38,034 nt of DNA from Prochlorococcus sp. AG-686-O05 (GTDB taxonomy: Bacteria; Cyanobacteriota; Cyanobacteriia; PCC-6307; Cyanobiaceae). The stretch spans positions 1 to 38,034 of the forward strand of contig QCVV01000005.1 in assembly GCA_003210235.1 (NCBI GenBank). Reading direction: 5' to 3'. Positions within the stretch are counted from its first letter, which is position 1. Every line of letters starts with the position of its first letter. The position numbers and the translations under genes were made by a program. The notes under the pieces were generated by a model that worked only from the letters and a program-made list of their open reading frames with translations, was not told where the DNA came from and searched no databases. Positions 12,654 through 22,429 of this stretch are shown one piece after another.

Positions 12654-12789
12654 TTTATAATTAAAATATCTTTTTAGTTATAAAAGAAGAAATTTATTTT
12701 TTAATGTATTTATTACAAAATTCATAGAAATCTAGCTAAATTAAGTAGATATACCCAAAGAATTGTCGCAAGTTCCGAACATTTAAGTT

Positions 12790-13131
12790 ATGTTCAGTAT
12801 GAACATTTTAAAAATCATGCTTAAAAATAAAGAAAAAAATTCTGTAGTAAGAGGAATCTTTTTAATTGGAGGTTGGGGTTTAGGTTTAGATAGATTTTAC
12901 GAAGGAGATAAAAAAGGTGGAATCTTATCAATTATTGGATGGAGTATTACATTTTTTTCTTTCCTATATCTAAAATGTTCAGGATATGAATATGTTGATG
13001 GTGTAAAAAATTATTCAGATTACTCCCCAAATCCTTTAATTGTTTTACCTTTGCTAGCTGGAGTTTATGGAGGGTTTCTTATAATTAAAAAGGCTTTCAG
13101 GTTAGCTAAACAATTTGAAAACGCTGAGTAA
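12790..13131 (+). CDS. TM2 domain membrane protein
   Basis: 113 residues. The segment GLGLDRFYEGDKKGGILSII carries the TM2 hallmark (first helix, short loop with an aromatic-rich DRFY turn, then KxGxxxxI second helix). A third helix is near 76-95. TM2 proteins occur in many bacteria with unclear function. Possible starts: ATG 12790, Met4 or Met10. Divergent from the barrel gene with about 136 nt between. Confidence 0.7.
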   Translation: MFSMNILKIMLKNKEKNSVVRGIFLIGGWGLGLDRFYEGDKKGGILSIIGWSITFFSFLYLKCSGYEYVDGVKNYSDYSPNPLIVLPLLAGVYGGFLIIKKAFRLAKQFENAE

Positions 13132-13146
13132 TAATCTCAAACACAT

Positions 13147-13308
13147 TCAAGATAATAAACCTGATCCTTTCAAATAAAATTTAAATAAAAGAATAACTAG
13201 TAAATTAACAATTGCTAAAGCAACTATTCCATTTCTATTTTTAACATCTAGTCTTTTAATTAAATTAGAAAGATAAACGACAGGGTTTTCGGGTTCTTTA
13301 TTATTCAA
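13147..13308 (-). CDS. 53-residue membrane protein with TTG start
   Basis: TTG 13306-13308 to TGA 13147. The first half is polar (NNKEPENPVVYLSNLIKRLDVKN) and the second is one membrane helix (about 27-44, IVALAIVNLLVILLFKF). No ATG lies in frame between the upstream stop and the TTG. Coherent helix and charge pattern support it, but there is no Shine-Dalgarno. Confidence 0.4.
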   Translation of the reverse strand: MNNKEPENPVVYLSNLIKRLDVKNRNGIVALAIVNLLVILLFKFYLKGSGLLS

Positions 13309-13401
13309 TATTAATAAAATAAATTTAGATCAAATTATCATGGAATTTTTTTAAAACCCAAGAATGTAAAGTTCAAATTTCAAACAGATACCTCTAAGGA
13401 A

Positions 13402-13755
13402 TTACATTATTCCTGCATTTCTCAAGAAAGCTTTACCTATATTTCCAATAACAAAAAATAAAGACAAATTAATCAAAAGAATGATTAATAATGCCAACAT
13501 TTTATAGTTAGGATTTGATGAAATTCCATCAAATCCATCGTTGAGAACTCTTTTAAAAAGTGAATTGTCGTTTGTTACTGGTTTATCCCCTTCTAAATCA
13601 GATTTACCTTTTTCATCCACAATCTCTTGATTACTTGCATTTTCAAGAAATTCAGTAAATGCTTTAACATTCTCCTCTTTATTACTTTCTTTCTTTAATT
13701 CGGAAGATGATTCAGTTGAATTTTTCTCTTCAGGGATTTGCTTTGACTCTTCCAA
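13402..13755 (-). CDS. C-terminally anchored acidic protein
   Basis: 117 residues. The first 70 are very acidic and Ser/Lys/Glu-rich (MEESKQIPEEKNSTESSSEL...), probably disordered. A single membrane helix (about 85-106) and a short C-terminus (KAFLRNAGIM) follow. No family recognised. Confidence 0.6.
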   Translation of the reverse strand: MEESKQIPEEKNSTESSSELKKESNKEENVKAFTEFLENASNQEIVDEKGKSDLEGDKPVTNDNSLFKRVLNDGFDGISSNPNYKMLALLIILLINLSLFFVIGNIGKAFLRNAGIM

Positions 13756-13933
13756 AATGTAAATTTATGCTAGGGGTATATTACACCATAAAAAAAACCC
13801 ACTCGATCAAATGAAGAGAAGGTTAGTTAAGATTAAAGTTCTTCATCTAATACTAATTAATTTTGATGAGTTTTGCGATTAGAAATTTTTTACTAAACAA
13901 AAAGAATTTTTAAAGTAATTATTAAAATAAACT

Positions 13934-14137
13934 ATGCTTGATTCACAAACAATAAAAACCTGCAAGGAGAATCCAACAATAAGAGACCTTAAGATAAAAA
14001 ATATTGAGCATGCTATTGATCAAGCAGAAATTATGATCAAAGAATCAAAAATGAATCAAGAAGAATTAAGTTTTTTGAAAAGGAAAATATCTGATTCAAG
14101 GCAGGATCTGGAGATTCTTTATTTAATGAAAATTTAA
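13934..14137 (+). CDS. 67-residue helical protein
   Basis: Fully helical, charged sequence with heptad-like spacing (IEHAIDQAEIMIKESKMNQEE then LSFLKRKISDSRQDLEILYLM), consistent with a short coiled coil. No membrane segment and no family recognised. Confidence 0.5.
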   Translation: MLDSQTIKTCKENPTIRDLKIKNIEHAIDQAEIMIKESKMNQEELSFLKRKISDSRQDLEILYLMKI

Positions 14138-14227
14138 ATAAATCAATGCTTTTAAAATAAAGTTTTAGTATATTTGGAGACTTAAGAATGTATTGAATAA
14201 TGATTATATTTAAAAAAAAATAAAATT

Positions 14228-14329
14228 ATGCCAAAGAAAAGTTTTTATATACCTATAAAAGTAGTTCCATATATATTTGTCTCAATTGCTGCTATTACTA
14301 TTGCTGCTACTACAAATATAATTATTTAG
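14228..14329 (+). CDS. 33-residue membrane peptide
   Basis: ATG 14228 to TAG 14327. Begins MPKKSFYIPIKVVPYIFVSI and continues with an Ala/Ile/Thr helix. Basic N-terminus then one helix, as in small thylakoid subunits. No assignment is possible. Confidence 0.4.
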   Translation: MPKKSFYIPIKVVPYIFVSIAAITIAATTNIII

Positions 14330-14419
14330 TATTTAAGAACATTGTTTATGAATAACATATAAAATAATTCAATAGAACATATGAATTAATCAAAAAGATT
14401 ATATAAGAACAATAAATAC

Positions 14420-14662
14420 ATGAAAAATTTAAGGATAACTCTCGCTGTGATTTTTTTATCTATAATTTTCTTTCTTAGTTTAAAAACATATCGTGATTTT
14501 GTTATTTCTAGTGATTTAAAAAATGAAGAAAAAAATAAATTAAAAAATTCAGCTGAAATCTTGAATGAATGTTTTGATCTTAAAAACAAGAGTAAGAGAA
14601 ATATAAATGAATCAATGAAATTGATTGAATATTGTTTAGAGGAATTTGGGTCTGAAAAATAA
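14420..14662 (+). CDS. Small anchored helical protein
   Basis: 80 residues: N-terminal membrane anchor or uncleaved signal (about 4-22, LRITLAVIFLSIIFFLSL) followed by a charged helical domain with two cysteines (C51, C72). No family recognised. The opposite strand is also open over much of it because of AT-richness, but the plus-strand product is the coherent one. Confidence 0.5.
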   Translation: MKNLRITLAVIFLSIIFFLSLKTYRDFVISSDLKNEEKNKLKNSAEILNECFDLKNKSKRNINESMKLIEYCLEEFGSEK

Positions 14663-14724
14663 TTTAATTAGCATATGCTCAACTACTTATATTTTTTAAA
14701 ATAACTCAATTAGCGTATATAAAA

Positions 14725-14943
14725 ATGCTTATGGATAAAAATAATATTAATAGGTGGGAACCAACTAAACTGCAAATCGATAATATCATTCTTCCTGCCT
14801 ATACAGATCTTTCTAAGAGATGTGTTGCTTATATCAATGAACTTGAATGTCCACCACAATACATAGCTGATATGTTGAGAGATTTATCTGATGCAATAAT
14901 GACTTCATATCCTGAAGTTAAAAACAATAGTTCTAATTTATAG
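14725..14943 (+). CDS. Conserved small soluble protein, unknown
   Basis: 72 residues (or 70 from ATG 14731). Contains WEPTKLQIDNIILPAYTDLS and ECPPQYIADMLRDLSDAIM, a compact helical protein with two cysteines. It ends 7 nt before the OsmC gene and is likely in its operon. No family recognised. Confidence 0.6.
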   Translation: MLMDKNNINRWEPTKLQIDNIILPAYTDLSKRCVAYINELECPPQYIADMLRDLSDAIMTSYPEVKNNSSNL

Positions 14944-14950
14944 TTTTTAA

Positions 14951-15358
14951 ATGAGTAAAATTACATGTTCTTATGTAGGAGACTTAAAATGCGAAGCTAA
15001 ACATCTCCAATCTGGGAATCTAATCACTACTGATGCACCTGTAGATCATTGCGGGAAAGGGGAAAACTTCTCCCCAACTGATTTACTCGCAACCTCCCTA
15101 GGCTCTTGCCTTCTAACGATAATGTCAATCAAAGCAAGATCAAATGGTTGGGAATTAAAAAATATTTATTTAGATATTGAGAAAATAATGACTAAAGATA
15201 ATGAAAGAAAAATAGGACAACTAAAAATAGATATTTATATTCCTGATGATTTATCAAAAGAAAAAATTGATTTTATAAAAAATGCTTCTAAAGATTGTCC
15301 TGTTACTCGAAATCTTTCTGAATCGCTTGATATTAAAATAAATTGGCATAATCAATAA
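14951..15358 (+). CDS. OsmC/Ohr family peroxide reductase
   Basis: 135 residues. OsmC-family features: FSPTDLLATSLGSCLLTIM with a reactive Cys at 53, the amphipathic helix that follows, and the second Cys at 116 in NASKDCPVTRNL. The two Cys act as a thiol pair that reduces organic hydroperoxides, with an Arg/Glu supporting the active site. Cytosolic. It probably adds to peroxide defence along with the peroxidase at the left edge. The subtype (Ohr versus OsmC versus YhfA-like) is not resolved. Confidence 0.88.
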   Translation: MSKITCSYVGDLKCEAKHLQSGNLITTDAPVDHCGKGENFSPTDLLATSLGSCLLTIMSIKARSNGWELKNIYLDIEKIMTKDNERKIGQLKIDIYIPDDLSKEKIDFIKNASKDCPVTRNLSESLDIKINWHNQ

Positions 15359-15399
15359 ACTTTACAAAAATAATTTTCAATTTTTAATAATAAGATTAT

Positions 15400-15507
15400 A
15401 TGAAATACTTCATAGGAATAATTATTCTTTTACTTGGAATATTTATAATTACTGATTTAGCATTTAAAACTAGATATACCAGAAAAAGATTGTCCAATAA
15501 AAAATAG
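15400..15507 (+). CDS. 35-residue single-pass membrane protein
   Basis: ATG 15400 to TAG 15505. Helix IGIIIILLLGIFIITDLAF-like at the N-terminus and a strongly basic tail (KTRYTRKRLSNKK), giving a clear cytoplasmic-side C-terminus. It is followed after one base by another tiny membrane protein gene, so the two appear translationally coupled. Confidence 0.5.
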   Translation: MKYFIGIIILLLGIFIITDLAFKTRYTRKRLSNKK

Positions 15508-15508
15508 A

Positions 15509-15616
15509 ATGAATAAGATTCTTGTTCCTAGATATCCATATATTAGAAATTATTTAGGATACTTTTCTGGACTTTCTATTATTTTATTCAACCCATTGTT
15601 ATTACTTTTTGTTTAA
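15509..15616 (+). CDS. 35-residue membrane protein, coupled to the preceding one
   Basis: ATG 15509 to TAA 15614, starting one base after the previous stop. Aromatic N-terminus (MNKILVPRYPYIRNYLGYF) then a Leu-rich helix to the end. Close pairing of two small membrane proteins hints at a small heteromeric complex. Function unknown. Confidence 0.45.
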   Translation: MNKILVPRYPYIRNYLGYFSGLSIILFNPLLLLFV

Positions 15617-15818
15617 ATCTAAAATATATTCTCGAGATTTTCTAGCTAATTTAATATTTTTCTCTCTTCATCTAAGTTGATTTAATTCTTGAATAGATTA
15701 GATTTTAGGATTTTTTTTATTCTTAAAATACTTAAAGAATTAAGAAAATATTTTTTCATAAAACCAATTTACTATCTATTATCATTTCGCCCGTAGAGAA
15801 AATTAGTTTTATTAGATA

Positions 15819-15854
15819 ATAAATATAAATAATTATTGAATTATTTATATTTAT
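15819..15854. terminator. Perfect 16-bp AT hairpin at a gene end
   Basis: ATAAATATAAATAATT (15819-15834) pairs perfectly with 15839-15854 around ATTG. It overlaps the stop codon of the minus-strand membrane-protein gene at 15841, so it may protect its 3' end or aid termination; there is no distinct T-run. Confidence 0.35.
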
Positions 15855-16128
15855 CAATTTTTTGATCAATTAAATCAATTAAAGGAATCATGAAATTAAC
15901 ATTTATACCTACAGTACACCATACGTATGTAAGACAAAATATCAATTTTATATATAAGTTAGAGGGTAAAGTAAGAAACAATTTAAAAAAACTACCAATA
16001 AATAATATTAGTATTCCAATTTGCAATAATCCTTTAGCTATCCATAGAAAACCTCGTTTCTTTATGTTCTTATAGAACCAAACAAAAATAGCTCCAAAAA
16101 TAAATAATAAAATTAGATTTATTATCAT
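15841..16128 (-). CDS. Membrane protein with three helices
   Basis: 95 residues with helices at about 2-18, 28-50 and 58-83. Loops carry KNIKKRGF and KIDKYK. No recognised family. Confidence 0.55.
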   Translation of the reverse strand: MIINLILLFIFGAIFVWFYKNIKKRGFLWIAKGLLQIGILILFIGSFFKLFLTLPSNLYIKLIFCLTYVWCTVGINVNFMIPLIDLIDQKIDKYK

Positions 16129-16148
16129 TTAAAATCTTTAATAACACT

Positions 16149-16167
16149 TAATAATAATAATAATAAT
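16149..16167 (+). repeat. (TAA)6 microsatellite
   Basis: Six perfect TAA units plus one T in the intergenic space between two minus-strand genes. Slippage-prone; no function evident. Confidence 0.7.
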
Positions 16168-16297
16168 GCTTTAGCTAAAGGAGAAGATAAATATTACTTT
16201 TTTAAATCAGTTAATATTAAAGAAATTAATTAATTCACTATAAATATTTTGAAAGATTATAAGTAAAAGATTCAAACGCGTATTAATCTAAATCATT

Positions 16298-16681
16298 TTA
16301 AAACAACTTCATTTTTAATAAATCAATCCTCTTTTGATTAACACCTAGATCACTTTCACCAACTCTAGACTCAGACCTAACTAGCAATCTACTAGATTCA
16401 GGAACAAAAGATACTTCTAAATCATCAACGTATTTCATCCATTTACTTGTTACTTCAGCATGAAGATAATCTCCGTCAAGTTCAACTATTACTGATCTTG
16501 GGGTATTCTCAATAATTTCTTTAACCTCCTTAAAAGGTTGTTCGATTGAATTAACCTGCCATTCTTCTCTCACACAATGTGCTATTTCAACACATTCACT
16601 CAATTCAATGTGAGAAGCAAATGAAGCCGAGGGAAATATAAATCCTACAAATATAAAAAAACTTATAAAAAAGATTTTCAT
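16298..16681 (-). CDS. DUF1499 family secreted protein
   Basis: 127 residues from MKIFFISFF (the frame extends four residues further, to 16693). Signal peptide to about residue 22 (FPSASFA then SHIE). The mature part shows the DUF1499 pattern: CVREEWQV, then VIVELDGDYLHAEVTSKWMKYVDDLEV and RSESRVGESDLGVNQKRIDLL near the end. Secreted or lumenal in cyanobacteria; biochemical role unknown. Confidence 0.75.
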   Translation of the reverse strand: MKIFFISFFIFVGFIFPSASFASHIELSECVEIAHCVREEWQVNSIEQPFKEVKEIIENTPRSVIVELDGDYLHAEVTSKWMKYVDDLEVSFVPESSRLLVRSESRVGESDLGVNQKRIDLLKMKLF

Positions 16682-16819
16682 TAAAACAAGCATAAACTTT
16701 TCTTAATCTAACCAACAAAAATAAAAATTTGGTGGAATAATATTTAGTAAAATTTATATCTTATAGAAGAGATAAAAACTTCTAAGATTTAGAATTAAGT
16801 TTCAATAAATCTAAATACT

Positions 16820-17110
16820 GTGGAATTAACTGAACTAATAAAAGATTATTTAGCCACAGAATTATTATCTAGTACTGAACTTGACTTTCTAGAAGGAGAA
16901 TTATGGGAAACCATTCAACATATTTCAGAGATAAATACATTAACAATTGCTCCAAAGGATATATGCAATAAATTAGAACTTAAGGAAAAATCTTGCTGGC
17001 AATTATGTTGTGCTGCAGTGCTTGATATCTCAAGACCCTTAAAAGAGAAAAATGAGAGAGTTGAGAATTTAAACAAATTAATAAATCAATATAACCTTAG
17101 CAGCAAATAA
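16820..17110 (+). CDS. Conserved small soluble protein (GTG start)
   Basis: 96 residues from GTG 16820; no in-frame ATG upstream. Helical, with EGELWETIQHISEINTL and a Cys-rich KSCWQLCCAAVLDIS segment (three Cys). It ends inside the A-run of the terminator serving the convergent sRNA. No family recognised. Confidence 0.55.
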   Translation: MELTELIKDYLATELLSSTELDFLEGELWETIQHISEINTLTIAPKDICNKLELKEKSCWQLCCAAVLDISRPLKEKNERVENLNKLINQYNLSSK

Positions 17111-17132
17111 AAAAAGACCCCTTATAAAGGGG
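17109..17132 (-). terminator. Intrinsic terminator of the Yfr2-like RNA
   Basis: On the minus strand a CCCCTT/AAGGGG stem (arms 17118-17123 and 17127-17132) with a 3-base loop is followed by seven T (A 17109-17115 on the plus strand). It is a classic Rho-independent terminator in minus orientation. Confidence 0.8.
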
Positions 17133-17203
17133 CCTAAATTGGTTCTAACAAATCAAGTGTTTCCTTGTTTCCACTGATTTAATAAAACCTCTCCTACACA
17201 CGA
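17109..17203 (-). ncRNA. Yfr2-family (CyanoR) small RNA
   Basis: The minus-strand transcript contains two copies of GGAAACA (plus strand 17158-17164 and 17166-17172) in a loop closed by an AAATCA/TGATTT-type stem (17150-17158 with 17173-17180, one bulge), followed about 20 nt later by the 17109-17132 terminator. Duplicated GGAAACA in an exposed loop is the hallmark I associate with the Yfr2-5/CyanoR family. The 5' end near 17203 is estimated from a TATTTAAAT -10-like sequence just upstream. Family targets are poorly known. Confidence 0.7.
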
Positions 17204-17235
17204 TTTAAATATCACATGATTTTTTGAGGGAGGAA

Positions 17236-17254
17236 ATACTTACTGGGTAAGTAT
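17236..17254. promoter_or_regulatory. 8-bp perfect palindrome upstream of the Yfr2-like RNA
   Basis: ATACTTAC-TGG-GTAAGTAT is a perfect inverted repeat without a T-tail on either strand. It lies roughly 33-51 bases upstream of the estimated sRNA start and downstream of the Yfr1 terminator. Position and symmetry fit a transcription-factor operator; the factor is unknown. Confidence 0.4.
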
Positions 17255-17272
17255 ATTAACTGTCACAATGCT

Positions 17273-17310
17273 AAAAAACAAAAAGTACTCGAACAATAGT
17301 TCGAGTACTT
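17273..17310 (-). terminator. Yfr1 terminator hairpin
   Basis: AAGTACTCGAAC (17283-17294) pairs perfectly with GTTCGAGTACTT (17299-17310) around AATA. Minus-strand reading gives TTTTTGTTTTTT directly after the stem. Confidence 0.85.
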
Positions 17311-17350
17311 CTCAATATCAGAAAAATGTGTGTGAGGAGTTTCTGATTTA
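17273..17350 (-). ncRNA. yfr1: Yfr1 small RNA
   Basis: The minus strand carries ACTCCTCACAC (plus 17330-17340), the ultraconserved single-stranded element of Yfr1. It lies in a loop between arms ATCAGAA and TTCTGAT (plus 17341-17347 and 17317-17323) and is followed by a 12-bp GC-containing hairpin plus T-run. This is the known Yfr1 layout: motif, then strong terminator stem. In Prochlorococcus MED4, Yfr1 is known to repress outer-membrane porin mRNAs by pairing through this element. The 5' end is approximate. Confidence 0.9.
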
Positions 17351-17462
17351 ATTAATTTACACTTATCTGAATTAAAAAAGCTACGGTATTAATTACTATT
17401 TATATTTATTTACTTATTAATAAATGAAAGTAGAATACTTAAATTAGCAAAAGATACTTTAA

Positions 17463-17609
17463 TTGAGAAAAAAGTACCAGAGAGTAATTTACATATTTTC
17501 TGCAATTATCCTTTCTTCAATTATTGGAGGAGTTGTAAAATATTCTTTTAAATACATTGATGAGAATCCTGATAAATATGTTCCTAAAACAAGGCAAATA
17601 ATTATTTAA
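17463..17609 (+). CDS. 48-residue membrane protein, TTG start
   Basis: TTG 17463 to TAA 17607. Basic start (RKKYQR), one helix (about 7-24, VIYIFSAIILSSIIGGVV), then a lysine- and proline-containing tail (KYIDENPDKYVPKTRQIII). A stop lies immediately before the TTG, so no longer form exists. Charge layout supports a real membrane protein. Confidence 0.45.
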   Translation: MRKKYQRVIYIFSAIILSSIIGGVVKYSFKYIDENPDKYVPKTRQIII

Positions 17610-17781
17610 TTTTATTTTGATTAAATTTTTTTAAGGATACTTACAATTTTCTTATTTTTATTTGTTTCTTAGACTCTAAAATCATAAAAATAACTAAGAA
17701 ATACATAAATTATTTGAGTATAAATCCACTTTCCAAAATGATAAATCTGTCTTAGATACTTCTCAGCTATTGGAGGACTTT

Positions 17782-17922
17782 ATGAAAAGAAAAAACGCCT
17801 TTTTTATAAATAAAGATAATAATTTAGAAGATTTTAAAGCAAAACATAACTATCAAATAGTAGAAGAATACTGGAGGAAAAGAAAAAAGAAATGTGAAAA
17901 AGATCTCTCTAAATTTTGCTAA
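17782..17922 (+). CDS. 46-residue highly basic protein
   Basis: ATG 17782 to TAA 17920 with a good TTGGAGGA ribosome site 6-8 nt upstream. The product is very basic (MKRKNAFFINKDN ... YWRKRKKKCEKDLSKFC) with two cysteines near the C-terminus. It could bind nucleic acid. It ends 9 nt before the next gene. Confidence 0.5.
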   Translation: MKRKNAFFINKDNNLEDFKAKHNYQIVEEYWRKRKKKCEKDLSKFC

Positions 17923-17931
17923 CAAAAAATC

Positions 17932-18180
17932 ATGAATTTTATTATTTCTATTTTTCTAGCTTCTGTTATGTGGGTTCAAGTTCCTCAATGGGAGGCTGAT
18001 TGGTCAAAGTGTGCCGTAGATGTTCCGGATACTTCATGTCATTGGTATGTCGCTGCACCAGACAATACCTTTGGAGAAGGATTTGACTGGGAAAGTGCTC
18101 CTTGGTTTGATGCGAACGGACTTCAAGATGTTGCAAAAATTGAGAAAGAAAGTGTAGTAGAAAAGCTTCAAAATAATTAA
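17932..18180 (+). CDS. Small secreted protein with Trp-rich mature part
   Basis: 82 residues. Hydrophobic N-terminus (NFIISIFLASVMWVQVP), then an acidic, Trp-rich mature region with two cysteines (WSKCAVDVPDTSCHWYVAAP) that may form a disulfide. No family recognised. Possibly lumenal. Confidence 0.6.
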   Translation: MNFIISIFLASVMWVQVPQWEADWSKCAVDVPDTSCHWYVAAPDNTFGEGFDWESAPWFDANGLQDVAKIEKESVVEKLQNN

Positions 18181-18273
18181 ATAAAATTCAATTAATAAAT
18201 TACATTTTTTTCAATAAAGTATTTATTTTTTTTCTAATAATATTTAAGATGGAAATAACTTTTTGATATTTTA

Positions 18274-18420
18274 ATGCGCTTCAAAGTAAGTTTAAAAAAA
18301 AACGGCAAAGAATTTGATGAGGTTGTGATAGCAAACAATAAGAAAGATGCTATTGAAGTGGCTTTAAAAAATAATCCAGAAGCAGAGGTCCTTAATTCTG
18401 ATTGGACATTTAAACTTTGA
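18274..18420 (+). CDS. 48-residue soluble protein
   Basis: ATG 18274 to TGA 18418. The sequence MRFKVSLKKNGKEFDEVVIA ... DAIEVALKNNPEAEVLNSDWTFK has the beta-alpha-beta look of a tiny ferredoxin-like or phage-type accessory protein. Its 3' end overlaps the stop region of convergent znuB by 11 nt. Confidence 0.55.
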   Translation: MRFKVSLKKNGKEFDEVVIANNKKDAIEVALKNNPEAEVLNSDWTFKL

Positions 18421-19216
18421 GAAAAGTTTTAAAATATTGACTTAACTTAGGAATTACTAGAGAAACAACGCAAATAACGCTTATTGCAGGCCCGGGAGAT
18501 AAGTTAAAAACAATTGAAAGAATAAAACCTAATACAGAAATACAAAGTCCAAAGAAAGAGGATCTCATCATCGCAATCCTAAGACTTTGTGCTTTATATA
18601 GTCCTAATAAAGTAGGTGTTGATAGTAATGCAATGACCAGAATGACTCCAACAGCGGACATCGAACTAACTATAACTAGTGCAGTAGTAAAACTTAGAGC
18701 TAAATTTAATAAAGAAACATTTATACCACTAGCTGAAGCCCCCTCTGGGTCTAATCCGACATACACAACTTTTTCATATCCAAAAGTTATTAATAAAATG
18801 AATGTTAGAAAAGCAATAATAGTTCTTAACAAATCGCTAAGGTTAGCAGTTAATAAATCTCCAAATAATACTGCCTCTAAATCAATCCTTATCCCAAGAA
18901 GTGGAATAAGTAAAACTCCAAAACCAAGCATTCCAGCAAGAATTGTATTCATTACCGCTTCATAATTCTCACTTTTTTTGTTAGTTAAACTTTCTGCAAA
19001 AACTGAACCAAGAAGTCCACTAATAACACCTCCGATTGAGGGATGTATCCCAAGAGCTAAAGCGAGAGCAAGTCCTGGCAAAACGCAGTGAGAAATTAAA
19101 TTTACCTGTAACAATCGTCTATGAGTTATTAATACAGTTCCCATAGCTGGGCATAAGATTCCAGAGAAAATAGTAATTATTAAGGGAATTAACCACCAGT
19201 TGTTAATAAAAGACAT
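18410..19216 (-). CDS. znuB: Zinc ABC transporter permease
   Basis: 268 residues with about eight membrane helices and the ABC-3 (ZnuB/MntB) pattern: GTVLITHRRLLQVNLISHCVLPGLALAL near residues 26-53 and the cytoplasmic coupling segment SSMSAVGVILVIALLSTPTLLGL near 184-206. It forms the membrane channel of the zinc importer with ZnuC and ZnuA. znuC is on the same strand, but zur lies between them on the other strand. zur neighbours and the Zur box make zinc the likely metal; manganese importers of this family are similar. Confidence 0.88.
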   Translation of the reverse strand: MSFINNWWLIPLIITIFSGILCPAMGTVLITHRRLLQVNLISHCVLPGLALALALGIHPSIGGVISGLLGSVFAESLTNKKSENYEAVMNTILAGMLGFGVLLIPLLGIRIDLEAVLFGDLLTANLSDLLRTIIAFLTFILLITFGYEKVVYVGLDPEGASASGINVSLLNLALSFTTALVIVSSMSAVGVILVIALLSTPTLLGLYKAQSLRIAMMRSSFFGLCISVLGFILSIVFNLSPGPAISVICVVSLVIPKLSQYFKTFLKV

Positions 19217-19269
19217 TAATCGTATGATTCGTTATGATCTAGAAAATTGGAAATCAAAAGATCTTGAAT

Positions 19270-19668
19270 ATGATGGTAACCAAGCCTGAAATTACCAAAA
19301 GACAAGAGCAACTTCTTGAAAAACTCAAAAAATGTGAAGATGAATTGAGTGGTCAAGAACTCCATAGACAATTGATTATAGATGGCAAATCTATGGGTTT
19401 GACAACAGTTTACAGAAATCTTCAAGTACTTATAAAAAATGGATTAATTAGATCTAGGCATCTTCCAACAGGGGAAGTTCTTTACACTCCTGTTGATAGA
19501 GATATTCACCATCTGACTTGTGTTCAGTGTGGAGAAACTTCTAAGGTGGAAGGTTGTCCTGTGAAAGAGATACATAGCCCTAAGAAAAACACAAAAAAAT
19601 TTCAATTATTATTTCATACCCTTGAATATTTCGGACTTTGCCAAAACTGTTATCAAACTCAGAGTTAA
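19270..19668 (+). CDS. zur: Zur, zinc-responsive Fur-family repressor
   Basis: 132 residues from ATG 19270 (the frame opens at a TTG at 19264 and Met at 19273 is also possible). N-terminal winged helix with GKSMGLTTVYRNLQVLIKNGLI, the recognition-helix signature; C-terminal dimer/metal domain with IHHLTCVQCG and GLCQNC, two CxxC pairs that hold structural zinc. His-rich sensing residues lie around IHH and FHTLEYFG. Fur, Zur and PerR are hard to separate by sequence; being embedded among znu genes argues for Zur. Confidence 0.88.
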   Translation: MMVTKPEITKRQEQLLEKLKKCEDELSGQELHRQLIIDGKSMGLTTVYRNLQVLIKNGLIRSRHLPTGEVLYTPVDRDIHHLTCVQCGETSKVEGCPVKEIHSPKKNTKKFQLLFHTLEYFGLCQNCYQTQS

Positions 19669-19687
19669 ATTTAAACATATTTTAATC

Positions 19688-20452
19688 TCAAGAATCACTT
19701 TCTTTTAAAGAACTAATATTAAGATCATTAAGTTCACCCTGTATTGAATTAGGAGTTCCTGAAGCTAAAACTGTTTTATCTAACACAACTACCTGATCAT
19801 AATTATTGAGAGATGAGCCCCAATCATGACTGCTTATAAATAAAGATAGTCCAGCATCTGCAAGTTGACGTACTATCTTGAGAAAATCATCCTTAGCAGG
19901 AGGGTCCAAAGCAGCACATGGTTCATCTAATAAAAGAATTCTTGCAGGAGACATTAAAGTTTTTGCTAAAAGTGCTCGTTGTTGTTGTCCTCCAGAAAGA
20001 GAATCAAGTCTTCTATTTGCAAGATTTGAGATACCAACTCTTTGCATTGTTGCTTCCAATTCACAACATTTATTAACCCAAGATTTAGGATTTGCAAGAA
20101 GAACCTTTATTTGGAATGGATTAGCACTTTTTGATTTTGAATATTTTATTTGACCTAAAGAGACTAATTTTTCAACTGTAATAGGAAATTTCCAATTCAT
20201 TGAGCTTCTTTGTGGCATAAGTGCAACTTGGGATCTAGTTCTAACTAAACTTTCCCCATCAATTGTTATATCTCCAATATCAGGATTATTTTGTCCTTGC
20301 AATAATTTCAAAAGAGTTGATTTACCAGCTCCATTTGGCCCAACAAGAGCCGTTAAAGTTCCAGGTTTTATTTGAACTGAAACTTTATTTAAGGCTGGCT
20401 TACTTTTTTTTGAATAGGAATAAGTTAAATTATCTGCAATTAAAGTAGCCAT
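19688..20452 (-). CDS. znuC: Zinc ABC transporter ATP-binding protein
   Basis: 254 residues. Walker A GPNGAGKST (38-46), Q-loop MPQRSS (80-85), signature LSGGQQQR (153-160), Walker B ILLLDEP (173-179) and switch His in SSHDW. The helical region between Q-loop and signature is longer than usual (KYSKSKSANPFQIKVLLANP region). It energises zinc import through ZnuB. znuC and znuA diverge from a 138-nt intergenic region holding a Zur box, so both are likely zinc-repressed. Convergent with zur, 19 nt apart. Confidence 0.92.
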   Translation of the reverse strand: MATLIADNLTYSYSKKSKPALNKVSVQIKPGTLTALVGPNGAGKSTLLKLLQGQNNPDIGDITIDGESLVRTRSQVALMPQRSSMNWKFPITVEKLVSLGQIKYSKSKSANPFQIKVLLANPKSWVNKCCELEATMQRVGISNLANRRLDSLSGGQQQRALLAKTLMSPARILLLDEPCAALDPPAKDDFLKIVRQLADAGLSLFISSHDWGSSLNNYDQVVVLDKTVLASGTPNSIQGELNDLNISSLKESDS

Positions 20453-20553
20453 TAATGAATATACTTAAATCAGTTATGATATTTAGTCTATCAATATTAT
20501 TGAATCCATACTGTTTCCATAACAATTGATACCAAAAATTGCAATTAATTATG

Positions 20554-20570
20554 AAAATGATTATCATTTT
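20554..20570. promoter_or_regulatory. Zur box in the znuC-znuA intergenic region
   Basis: AAAATGAT-T-ATCATTTT is a perfect 8-1-8 palindrome ending 20 nt before the znuA start. Cyanobacterial Zur sites have this AT-rich TGAtAATnATTATCA-like form. It can repress both divergent genes when zinc is plentiful. Confidence 0.8.
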
Positions 20571-20590
20571 TAGGTGTTTAAAAATCTTTT

Positions 20591-22429
20591 ATGTCAATTT
20601 TCAAAAAACTTTTAATAAATAAAAAAGGTTCAAGTAATTCAATTATTAAAAATTCAGTTATAGCAGGAACTATAATATTTTCTGGTTTTGGGCAAGATGT
20701 TTTAGCCAAAGGAAAGTCATATGTAGCTGTAGAACCACTTGTTTGTGATTTAGTAAAATCAATAGCATTACCTTCAGATAAAGTTGCCTGCTTAGTGGAT
20801 AGAAAGCAGGACGTACATGACTTAAAAATCAATCCGAGACAAGCTCAATTACTAAATAGTGCAGATAAAGTATTCACTCTTGGTAAAGAGATGACTCCCA
20901 CAATGAAAAACTGGGAAGATAAGTCGAATACTGTTGTTGTTGGTGTTAGCGCTATTGAAGTTGAAAATCCTTCAAGTGAAGAAGGTGGGGCTTTCGAATG
21001 GGCTGGAGTTTTTGATCTTAAAGCTGGTTCATACAAATGGACTTTTGCAAAAGTTGATGGGGAATATGCAGATCCAGCAATGAAAATGGTTGTTCTGAAA
21101 TCTGGTGATATTGAAACATCTGAAGAATTAGCAGAAAACATGCTTGGATCGGATGAAAATATTGCTAAAAGCGATGGTGGAGAACTTATGGAAAGTGACA
21201 AAGCCTATGTTCTAAACTTTGATCAAAAGAAAGACGTTACAGAATTCAACCTTAAAATAAAAAATGATGGTAAATATGCATTTTTTACAGAACATATGCC
21301 TTTTGAATTTGAAGCTGATGAACATTTTTTAAAAGATCTTGCAAAAAATGATGTCGAGCCAGTTGCACAGGAACCAGATATGGGAGGTCATAGTGAACAT
21401 GGAGCAGAAGGATTTGAATGGGCAGGAACTTTTGAATTAGATGAGGGATCATATAAATGGTCGTTTGCAAAAGTAGATGGTGAGTATGCTGATCCTGCTA
21501 TGAAAATGGTTATTCTCAAGTCAGGTGACATTGAATCATCTGAAGACCTTGCTAAAGAATTATTAGAATCTGATTCTTCTATTAATAAAAGTAATAATGA
21601 TGTCCTTGTTGCCAGCTCTGAAGCCTTCTCTCTTAATTTTGATCAGAAAAAAGATTTAACCGTTTTTAATGTAGATATAAAAAAGAAAGGAAAATATACT
21701 TTCTTTACTGAACATATGCCATTTGAATTCGAGTCAGATGAGCACTTCTTTAAAGATGTTTCCAATTCTGATGTAGAACCCATAGCACAAGTACCTGATG
21801 AAGGAGGTGGCCATCATCATCACCATCATGGACATGGCAGCTTAGACCCTCATGTTTGGCATGATCCAAGTAACATAATAAAAATGAGTAATGTTATATC
21901 AAAAAATCTAAAGAAAGATATATCCATTTTTAATAGAAAAGATAGGAAAGCTATAAATGAAAGAATCGATAGTACTGAATCTATTCTTGGCGACCTAAAG
22001 GGATGGATAGTTGATCAGGTTACCACTATCCCAGAGTCAAATAGGGTAATAGTCTCAAAACACAAAGCAATGGATTATTACGGAAATGCTTTTGGTTTGG
22101 AGACAGTAAGTCTATTAGATTTTCTTGGCGATTCATCAAGCTTAAGGCCTGAAAATATCAAGACAACTCTAACGATGCTTGAAACAGAAAATGTTAAGGC
22201 AATATTCCCTGAACAAATTCCTGCATCAAAGTTATTAAAAAACTTAAGTAGGCAAAGTTCTGTGCCATTAGCTAATAGTCAAATATTTGTAGATGGATTA
22301 ATGATGACAGGAAATACAGTTTCTGTTGCTGTCCACAATACATGTACTATTGTTGATTCATTGGGTGGATCATGTGATAAGAAAGCAGGCAAGGACCTGG
22401 AAAGCAACTGGAGTTTTCAAAATAATTAA
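20591..22429 (+). CDS. znuA: Zinc-binding protein ZnuA with two inserted domains
   Basis: 612 residues, about twice the usual 300-330. Signal peptide to about residue 39 (VLA then KGK). ZnuA lobes: 43-125 (EPLVCDLVKSI, DVHDLKINPRQ with the first metal His) and 418-610 (LDPHVWHDP, VSKHKAMDYYGNAFGLE with another ligand His, IFPEQIPASK). The His-rich loop is present (GGGHHHHHHGHG, 405-416). Between the lobes lie two 128-residue repeats, 135-262 and 275-402, 140 residues apart, each starting FEWAG and holding FFTEHMPFEFE. The normal ZnuA has only a short His loop here. A CobW gene downstream carries a third copy. Confidence 0.9.
   Translation: MSIFKKLLINKKGSSNSIIKNSVIAGTIIFSGFGQDVLAKGKSYVAVEPLVCDLVKSIALPSDKVACLVDRKQDVHDLKINPRQAQLLNSADKVFTLGKEMTPTMKNWEDKSNTVVVGVSAIEVENPSSEEGGAFEWAGVFDLKAGSYKWTFAKVDGEYADPAMKMVVLKSGDIETSEELAENMLGSDENIAKSDGGELMESDKAYVLNFDQKKDVTEFNLKIKNDGKYAFFTEHMPFEFEADEHFLKDLAKNDVEPVAQEPDMGGHSEHGAEGFEWAGTFELDEGSYKWSFAKVDGEYADPAMKMVILKSGDIESSEDLAKELLESDSSINKSNNDVLVASSEAFSLNFDQKKDLTVFNVDIKKKGKYTFFTEHMPFEFESDEHFFKDVSNSDVEPIAQVPDEGGGHHHHHHGHGSLDPHVWHDPSNIIKMSNVISKNLKKDISIFNRKDRKAINERIDSTESILGDLKGWIVDQVTTIPESNRVIVSKHKAMDYYGNAFGLETVSLLDFLGDSSSLRPENIKTTLTMLETENVKAIFPEQIPASKLLKNLSRQSSVPLANSQIFVDGLMMTGNTVSVAVHNTCTIVDSLGGSCDKKAGKDLESNWSFQNN
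20993..21796 (+). repeat. Tandem duplication of the FEWxG domain inside znuA
   Basis: Two copies, 20993-21376 and 21413-21796, spaced 420 bp. The proteins match closely (FEWAG, KVDGEYADPAMKM, LNFDQKKD, FFTEHMPFEFE), but many third codon positions differ, so the duplication is not recent. Confidence 0.9.

Follow-up and report, generated by a model that had tools for sequence, protein, structure and literature searches.

Two small RNA genes lie in tandem on the minus strand of the window, the 38,034-nucleotide stretch of Prochlorococcus sp. AG-686-O05 (contig QCVV01000005.1) analyzed here. Their Rfam matches, Yfr10 and Cyano-1, are the only two in the window above gathering scores and each gene has its own intrinsic terminator, which confirms the tandem arrangement of the original prediction. 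The features of the locus are as follows, with spacing classes defined below.

17310 to 17414, minus strand: published ends of MED4 Yfr18 (complement 972284..972388; PMC2518516), projected onto the window by side-by-side alignment with equal length upstream of the motif
17381 to 17397, minus strand: AGTAATTAATACCGTAG, which agrees with the consensus AGTAATTTATACTGTAG of a block conserved ahead of the first RNA, from column conservation in the 77 short-class pairs listed
17269 to 17347, minus strand: Yfr10-family sRNA, by collinearity the orthologue of MED4 Yfr18, with motif hairpin and terminator (RF02362, 64.4 bits, cut-off 43)
17330 to 17340, minus strand: ACTCCTCACAC motif in the 15-nt loop of a predicted 8-bp hairpin (sequence and predicted fold)
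17279 to 17314, minus strand: intrinsic terminator of the first RNA (terminator scan and fold)
17256 to 17266, minus strand: GTGACAGTTAA element at a near-fixed distance before the Yfr2-type gene (comparison of short- and long-class pairs)
17136 to 17203, minus strand: Yfr2-type sRNA (Cyano-1), by synteny the orthologue of MED4 Yfr5 (RF01701, 63.9 bits, cut-off 41; stem covariation)
17191 to 17201, minus strand: GTGTGTAGGAG, the complement of the motif with a bulged C (sequence and fold; pairing proposed in PMC2518516)
17158 to 17172, minus strand: GGAAACA, present twice in the loop region of the hairpin in the Yfr2-type RNA (sequence)
17115 to 17135, minus strand: intrinsic terminator of the Yfr2-type RNA (terminator scan and fold)

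As had been predicted, the ACTCCTCACAC motif (17340-17330) is followed by a strong terminator, a 16-pair hairpin with a T-rich tail (17314-17279), and the second RNA carries two copies of GGAAACA (17172-17166 and 17164-17158) and a terminator of its own (17135-17115), all on the minus strand. The spacing, put originally at about 70 nt, is 65 nt between the Rfam matches (17269 to 17203). Neither RNA appears to be protein-coding, again as proposed, with 0 open reading frames of at least 60 aa inside the pair; a plus-strand frame of 96 aa that ends at 17110 shares only the first two bases of the span first assigned to the genes, 17109-17350. The terminator scan of 16900-17700 returned three terminator-like sites, two of which are the same place, versus 0.2 expected in shuffles. 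A simple promoter scan found no minus-strand sigma-70-like site upstream of either RNA, and its total of 2 sites is below the 5.4 of shuffles, an outcome that neither supports nor excludes expression of the pair. Between the two RNAs lies a perfect inverted repeat, ATACTTA-CCCAG-TAAGTAT (17236-17254, minus strand), possibly a regulator site, that is absent from the short-class consensus. Elsewhere in the window, 18410-22429 holds ABC transporter permease-like and ATPase-like frames, a Fur-like frame and a histidine-rich frame, which we take to resemble a zinc uptake cluster.

What is the first RNA? The original prediction named it Yfr1, and this name did not survive. The check proposed along with it, an Rfam search for Yfr1 and CyanoR, left Yfr1 (RF01116) unmatched between 16900 and 17700 at E≤1, while the name CyanoR was absent from the matches and Cyano-1 was found, at 63.9 bits, in agreement with the Yfr2-type call for the second RNA. 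The 11-base motif is common to Yfr1, Yfr10 and Yfr18 (PMC2518516) and therefore cannot by itself name the RNA. The rationale for rejecting Yfr1 is instead that the Rfam match is to Yfr10 at 64.4 bits, that the motif occupies an apical loop rather than the region between two stem-loops, and that a separate Yfr1 is present on contig C28 of the same genome, where a match to RF01116 of 58.8 bits adjoins a thioredoxin gene (trxA). A true Yfr1 relocated beside a Yfr2-type gene would carry the exact Yfr1 motif, as the first RNA does, but these observations and the synteny of the locus with yfr18 make such a relocation extremely improbable. Yfr1 thus has ACTCCTCACAC in common with the first RNA and differs from it in structure and gene neighbourhood. 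Judged by thioredoxin matches, which fall on C28, C2 and C3 and not on the window's contig C5, the locus does not lie between guaB and trxA as Yfr1 would. It does have the properties described for the Yfr10 family (PMC6778093), namely the Yfr1 motif in a loop atop a stem, predicted here as 8 bp with a 15-nt loop, and a position upstream of a Yfr2 homologue, the Cyano-1 match 65 nt downstream.

Exact copies of the motif number four in the window's genome, which is 63.6% complete in 83 contigs; the copy on C24 is part of a second Yfr10–Cyano-1 pair. A count over 61 genomes gave 138 exact copies of the motif, some of them at sites outside RNA genes, versus 5 of the backward pattern. Among 20 further motif sites, 9 (L148, L150, L152, L153, L155, L157, L160, L163 and L167) have no hairpin and terminator by eye and look like chance copies.

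The MED4 genome provides the closest published counterpart. We infer that one genome of our set (G015) is MED4 from its Yfr10 match at 346661-346738, which is exactly the published position of yfr10 (PMC2518516). The window from 12786 to 21379 is collinear with the MED4 region of the pair near 972 kb over 8.6 kb at 89%, and on this synteny the locus is named as the orthologue of MED4 yfr18–yfr5. That pair, with its adjacency and complementary motifs, was described in MED4 by Steglich et al. 2008 (PMC2518516). The arrangement itself is therefore already known at the orthologous locus, and the correction made here concerns the name of the first RNA. Order, strand and motifs are alike in the two loci, and the start-to-start spacing of the Rfam matches is 143 in MED4 and 144 in the window; small sequence differences separate the two pairs. 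MED4 Yfr10–Yfr2 (PMC2518516, PMC6778093) combines these two RNA families in the order seen here, as does the second pair of the window's genome, on C24, but belongs to a paralogous class with wider spacing (158-170 versus 137-151). Orthology with yfr10–yfr2 was rejected, since synteny and spacing favour yfr18–yfr5.

In MED4, Yfr18 is expressed, as seen by Northern blot and 5'RACE, and adjoins yfr5, with which its motif was proposed to pair (PMC2518516). The same source called its function unknown in 2008, and the 2019 study (PMC6778093) does not name Yfr18. The published ends fall short of the terminator hairpin and the sizes given are 29 and 76 nt (PMC2518516); for this reason, the Rfam model may not reflect the mature first RNA exactly. 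The AGTAATTAATACCGTAG block at 17381-17397 (minus strand) is a possible promoter region. Across the short-class relatives listed, 1195 of 1219 cells in the Yfr18-type stems are paired over 72 distinct rows, and two-sided changes are seen in 3 of 17 pairs, all of them in the terminator stem; the motif hairpin of these relatives shows no two-sided changes and hardly any variation. For the Yfr5-type stem, pairing holds in 958 of 981 cells over 76 distinct rows, with two-sided changes in 8 of 13 pairs, and both sets of counts are biased towards the structures because these were derived from the same alignment.

Cyano-1 was taken as the Yfr2-type family because the four Cyano-1 places in MED4 include those adjoining published yfr10, yfr12 and yfr18, genes that are placed beside yfr2, yfr4 and yfr5 (PMC2518516). 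The free 5' end expected of a Yfr2-type RNA, complementary to the Yfr1 motif, is present in the second RNA as GTGTGTAGGAG. In the predicted fold most of this sequence is single-stranded, the exception being three paired bases close to its 3' end, and in the co-fold it pairs with the motif.

Is the order of the two genes kept in other strains, as the original prediction asked? The genus was surveyed in 121 genomes, the window's own included, of which 96 have a Yfr10 match and 103 a Cyano-1 match. A pair was defined as a Cyano-1 match downstream of a Yfr10 match on the same strand within 400 nt. The same-strand order is found for 127 of the 150 Yfr10 matches listed; the other 23 have no listed Cyano-1 partner, and 23 of the 150 Cyano-1 matches listed have no listed Yfr10 partner. 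The pair count is thus a lower bound of at least 127. Start-to-start spacings fall into a short class of 137-151 (at least 77 pairs), to which the window pair and MED4 yfr18–yfr5 belong, and a long class of 158-170 (at least 50 pairs), which includes MED4 yfr10–yfr2 and yfr12–yfr4. The exact 11-base motif is present in the first RNA of 74 of the 77 short-class and 28 of the 50 long-class pairs listed. Within the long class, a GAAGGA partner accompanies 17 of 22 first RNAs with a changed motif versus 10 of 28 with the exact motif among the pairs listed, a skew that may reflect shared ancestry. One genome (G054; L053 at about 1350-1500) retains the Yfr5-type gene, which scores 80 bits, with ACTCCTCATACA in place of the upstream motif and no Yfr10 match there that exceeds the cut-off; one side of the pair can therefore be altered. 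In a draw of 151 genomes from the family, Yfr10 matches occur in 10, 6 inside the genus and 4 outside it. One of the four outside matches is above the cut-off; two of these loci (L217, L218) have a same-strand downstream Cyano-1 match and two (L215, L216) have none above the cut-off.

A fundamental question is whether the two genes are expressed separately or together. TGTGACAGTTAAG, with at most 2 mismatches, precedes the Cyano-1 start by 62-64 nt in 75 of the 77 short-class pairs listed and by 61-66 nt in 43 of the 50 long-class pairs listed, whereas the reversed control reaches this level in 0 of the 127 pairs listed; these frequencies are biased, the element having been drawn from the alignment of the same pairs, and the fixed distance is the stronger sign. 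Such an element suggests, from sequence comparison, that the second gene has a separate promoter. In the window the element reads GTGACAGTTAA and is possibly the published CGRE1 site, that of a GntR regulator. Genome-wide, this exact 11-base core has 8 sites in 8 genomes versus 4 for backward controls; a listed Cyano-1 gene follows closely downstream of 6 of the 8, 2 (one each in G022 and G107) lie elsewhere, and MED4 has no exact copy. With 2 of 8 sites elsewhere and 4 backward-control sites, GTGACAGTTAA as a signal exclusive to yfr2-type genes is not cleanly supported.

An alternative hypothesis is that the genes function chiefly through a single read-through transcript, with the motif paired in cis to the Yfr2-type 5' end, and that termination between them sets the balance of free and masked RNA. 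A joint Yfr10–Yfr2 precursor of 270 nt was reported for the sister pair in MED4 (PMC2518516, Table 1), order and spacing are conserved among the pairs listed, and in the fold predicted for the native 277-nt stretch its two motifs pair with each other in cis, as they would be expected to do if read-through occurs. However, the 16-pair terminator between the window's two genes looks strong, the fixed-distance element suggests that the second gene has its own promoter, and the sizes published for Yfr18, 29 and 76 nt, do not include a fused form (PMC2518516). We consider the read-through hypothesis unlikely, and favour two separately terminated RNAs.

The two RNAs of the window can probably pair with each other. 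Their predicted local duplex is -16.7 kcal/mol, with a co-fold gain of -12.6, and real neighbours average -17.2 over the 77 short-class and -16.6 over the 50 long-class pairs listed, versus -11.7 for reversed partners over the 127 pairs listed. Permutation gave no sign of private co-evolution among the pairs listed: in the short class the real mean, -17.18, was equalled or undercut by 3001 of 5000 permutations, whose mean is -17.19, and in the long class 1717 of 5000 did so, with means of -16.58 (real) and -16.51 (permuted). Neighbours thus pair no better than permuted partners, which points to a common motif code rather than private partners and leaves adjacency unexplained by private pairing. 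Could the tandem order be mainly a relic of an ancestral cassette duplication, without shared control? The lack of preference for the neighbour, the existence of two paralogous classes with different spacing, and the 23 of 150 listed matches of either family without a listed partner (explained in part by contig ends and the restriction to listed matches) are what such a relic would predict. Against it stand the retention of order and strand in 127 of the 150 matches listed, the narrow spacing within each class, and the upstream element kept in both classes; it is a possible explanation, although not the one we favour.

How might the pair work? Identity, order, terminators and complementarity are established at the level of sequence, and the manner of action is drawn by analogy from MED4. 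Lambrecht et al. 2019 reported that MED4 Yfr2 binds both Yfr1 and Yfr10 and counteracts both (PMC6778093). According to the same source, Yfr2 relieves the repression that Yfr1 exerts on a porin reporter in E. coli, binding of Yfr1 and Yfr10 to ppa mRNA is lost with Yfr2, Yfr2 is cut by RNase E and protected by Yfr1 or Yfr10, and a Yfr10 bait enriched Yfr3, Yfr4 and Yfr5. It also notes that Yfr10 homologues stand upstream of Yfr2 homologues in HL-adapted strains, where closeness may aid interaction. We infer that the Yfr18/Yfr5 pair of the window acts like MED4 Yfr2 with Yfr1 and Yfr10. The first RNA would present ACUCCUCACACAC in its hairpin loop and bind mRNAs with a GUGUGAGG-like site, and the free 5' end of the second RNA, GUGUGUAGGAG, would bind that motif, whether it is carried by the first RNA or by Yfr1. 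The Yfr2-type RNA would then be an antagonist, or sponge, of motif-carrying RNAs, and would itself be occupied when bound. We regard it as very probable that the locus is the yfr18–yfr5 orthologue pair, encoding separately terminated sRNAs with complementary single-stranded motifs, the second of which would antagonise motif carriers.

The fourth exact copy of the motif in the window's genome was found on C11 (20148-20158, minus strand; 1501-1511 of L065), where it sits in a porin-like gene's terminator loop. It begins 33 nt past the stop codon, and the same gene has GTGTGAGG, a Yfr1-complementary sequence of the type found at Yfr1 target sites, immediately ahead of its start codon. No Pfam family matches the protein; across roughly two thirds of its sequence it shares 36% and 31% identity with two MED4 proteins encoded around the published place of PMM1121. 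A strict pattern search for a GCAGCC/GGCTGC stem together with TCCTCACA detected the arrangement, seen at L065 and L168-L171, in 4 of 266 genomes, the window's and three of 265 others, and the three other motif-carrying porins are 50-57% identical to that on C11. Among the nine closest porin loci by protein similarity (at least 50% identity, L181-L189), four have the exact motif (L181, L183, L185 and L188), L186 has one mismatch, L184 is partial, L189 is degraded, and none was seen in L182 and L187. GTGTGAGG is found near the start in 26 of 30 porin loci.

Pairing between the 5' and 3' regions of the porin genes was compared with 300 dinucleotide shuffles each in the 25 loci scored; L182, L191 and L198 were left out, and L192 and L193, without GTGTGAGG, gave no row. 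For the four exact-motif loci the real pairing was matched by 11 to 23 of the 300 shuffles, a weak excess, and five motif-less loci (L194, L200, L201, L207 and L208) were similar, at 10 to 22 of 300; pairing energy alone is therefore weak evidence. Other loci showed no excess, or the reverse. The 3' flanks of L187, L196, L197 and L200 hold a TCTTACACAC stretch ahead of the terminator that is predicted to be able to pair with the GTGTGAGG of the same gene, and here 22 to 60 of 300 shuffles did equally well.

The available portions of the Yfr literature (PMC6778093, PMC2518516, PMC7368042, PMC5069720 and PMC6974561) hold no mention that we found of the motif in a porin terminator. The 3' end of the C11 mRNA may bind its own start region, may act in a Yfr1-like manner on other porin mRNAs, or may soak up Yfr2-type RNAs such as that of the window. 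A wider circuit in which the window's Yfr2-type RNA takes part and a porin-like mRNA on C11 also carries ACTCCTCACAC is a tentative and somewhat doubtful proposal; the motif in the porin terminator would matter more if shown to act.

The analysis adds a corrected name for the first RNA (Yfr10 family, Yfr18, rather than Yfr1) and a survey of gene order in 121 genomes. Moreover, it adds the two spacing classes, the fixed-distance element before the Yfr2-type gene, and the finding of no sign of private-partner co-evolution. The locus is cleanly orthologous to a pair of complementary sRNAs that has already been published, and its host is a very abundant photosynthetic organism.
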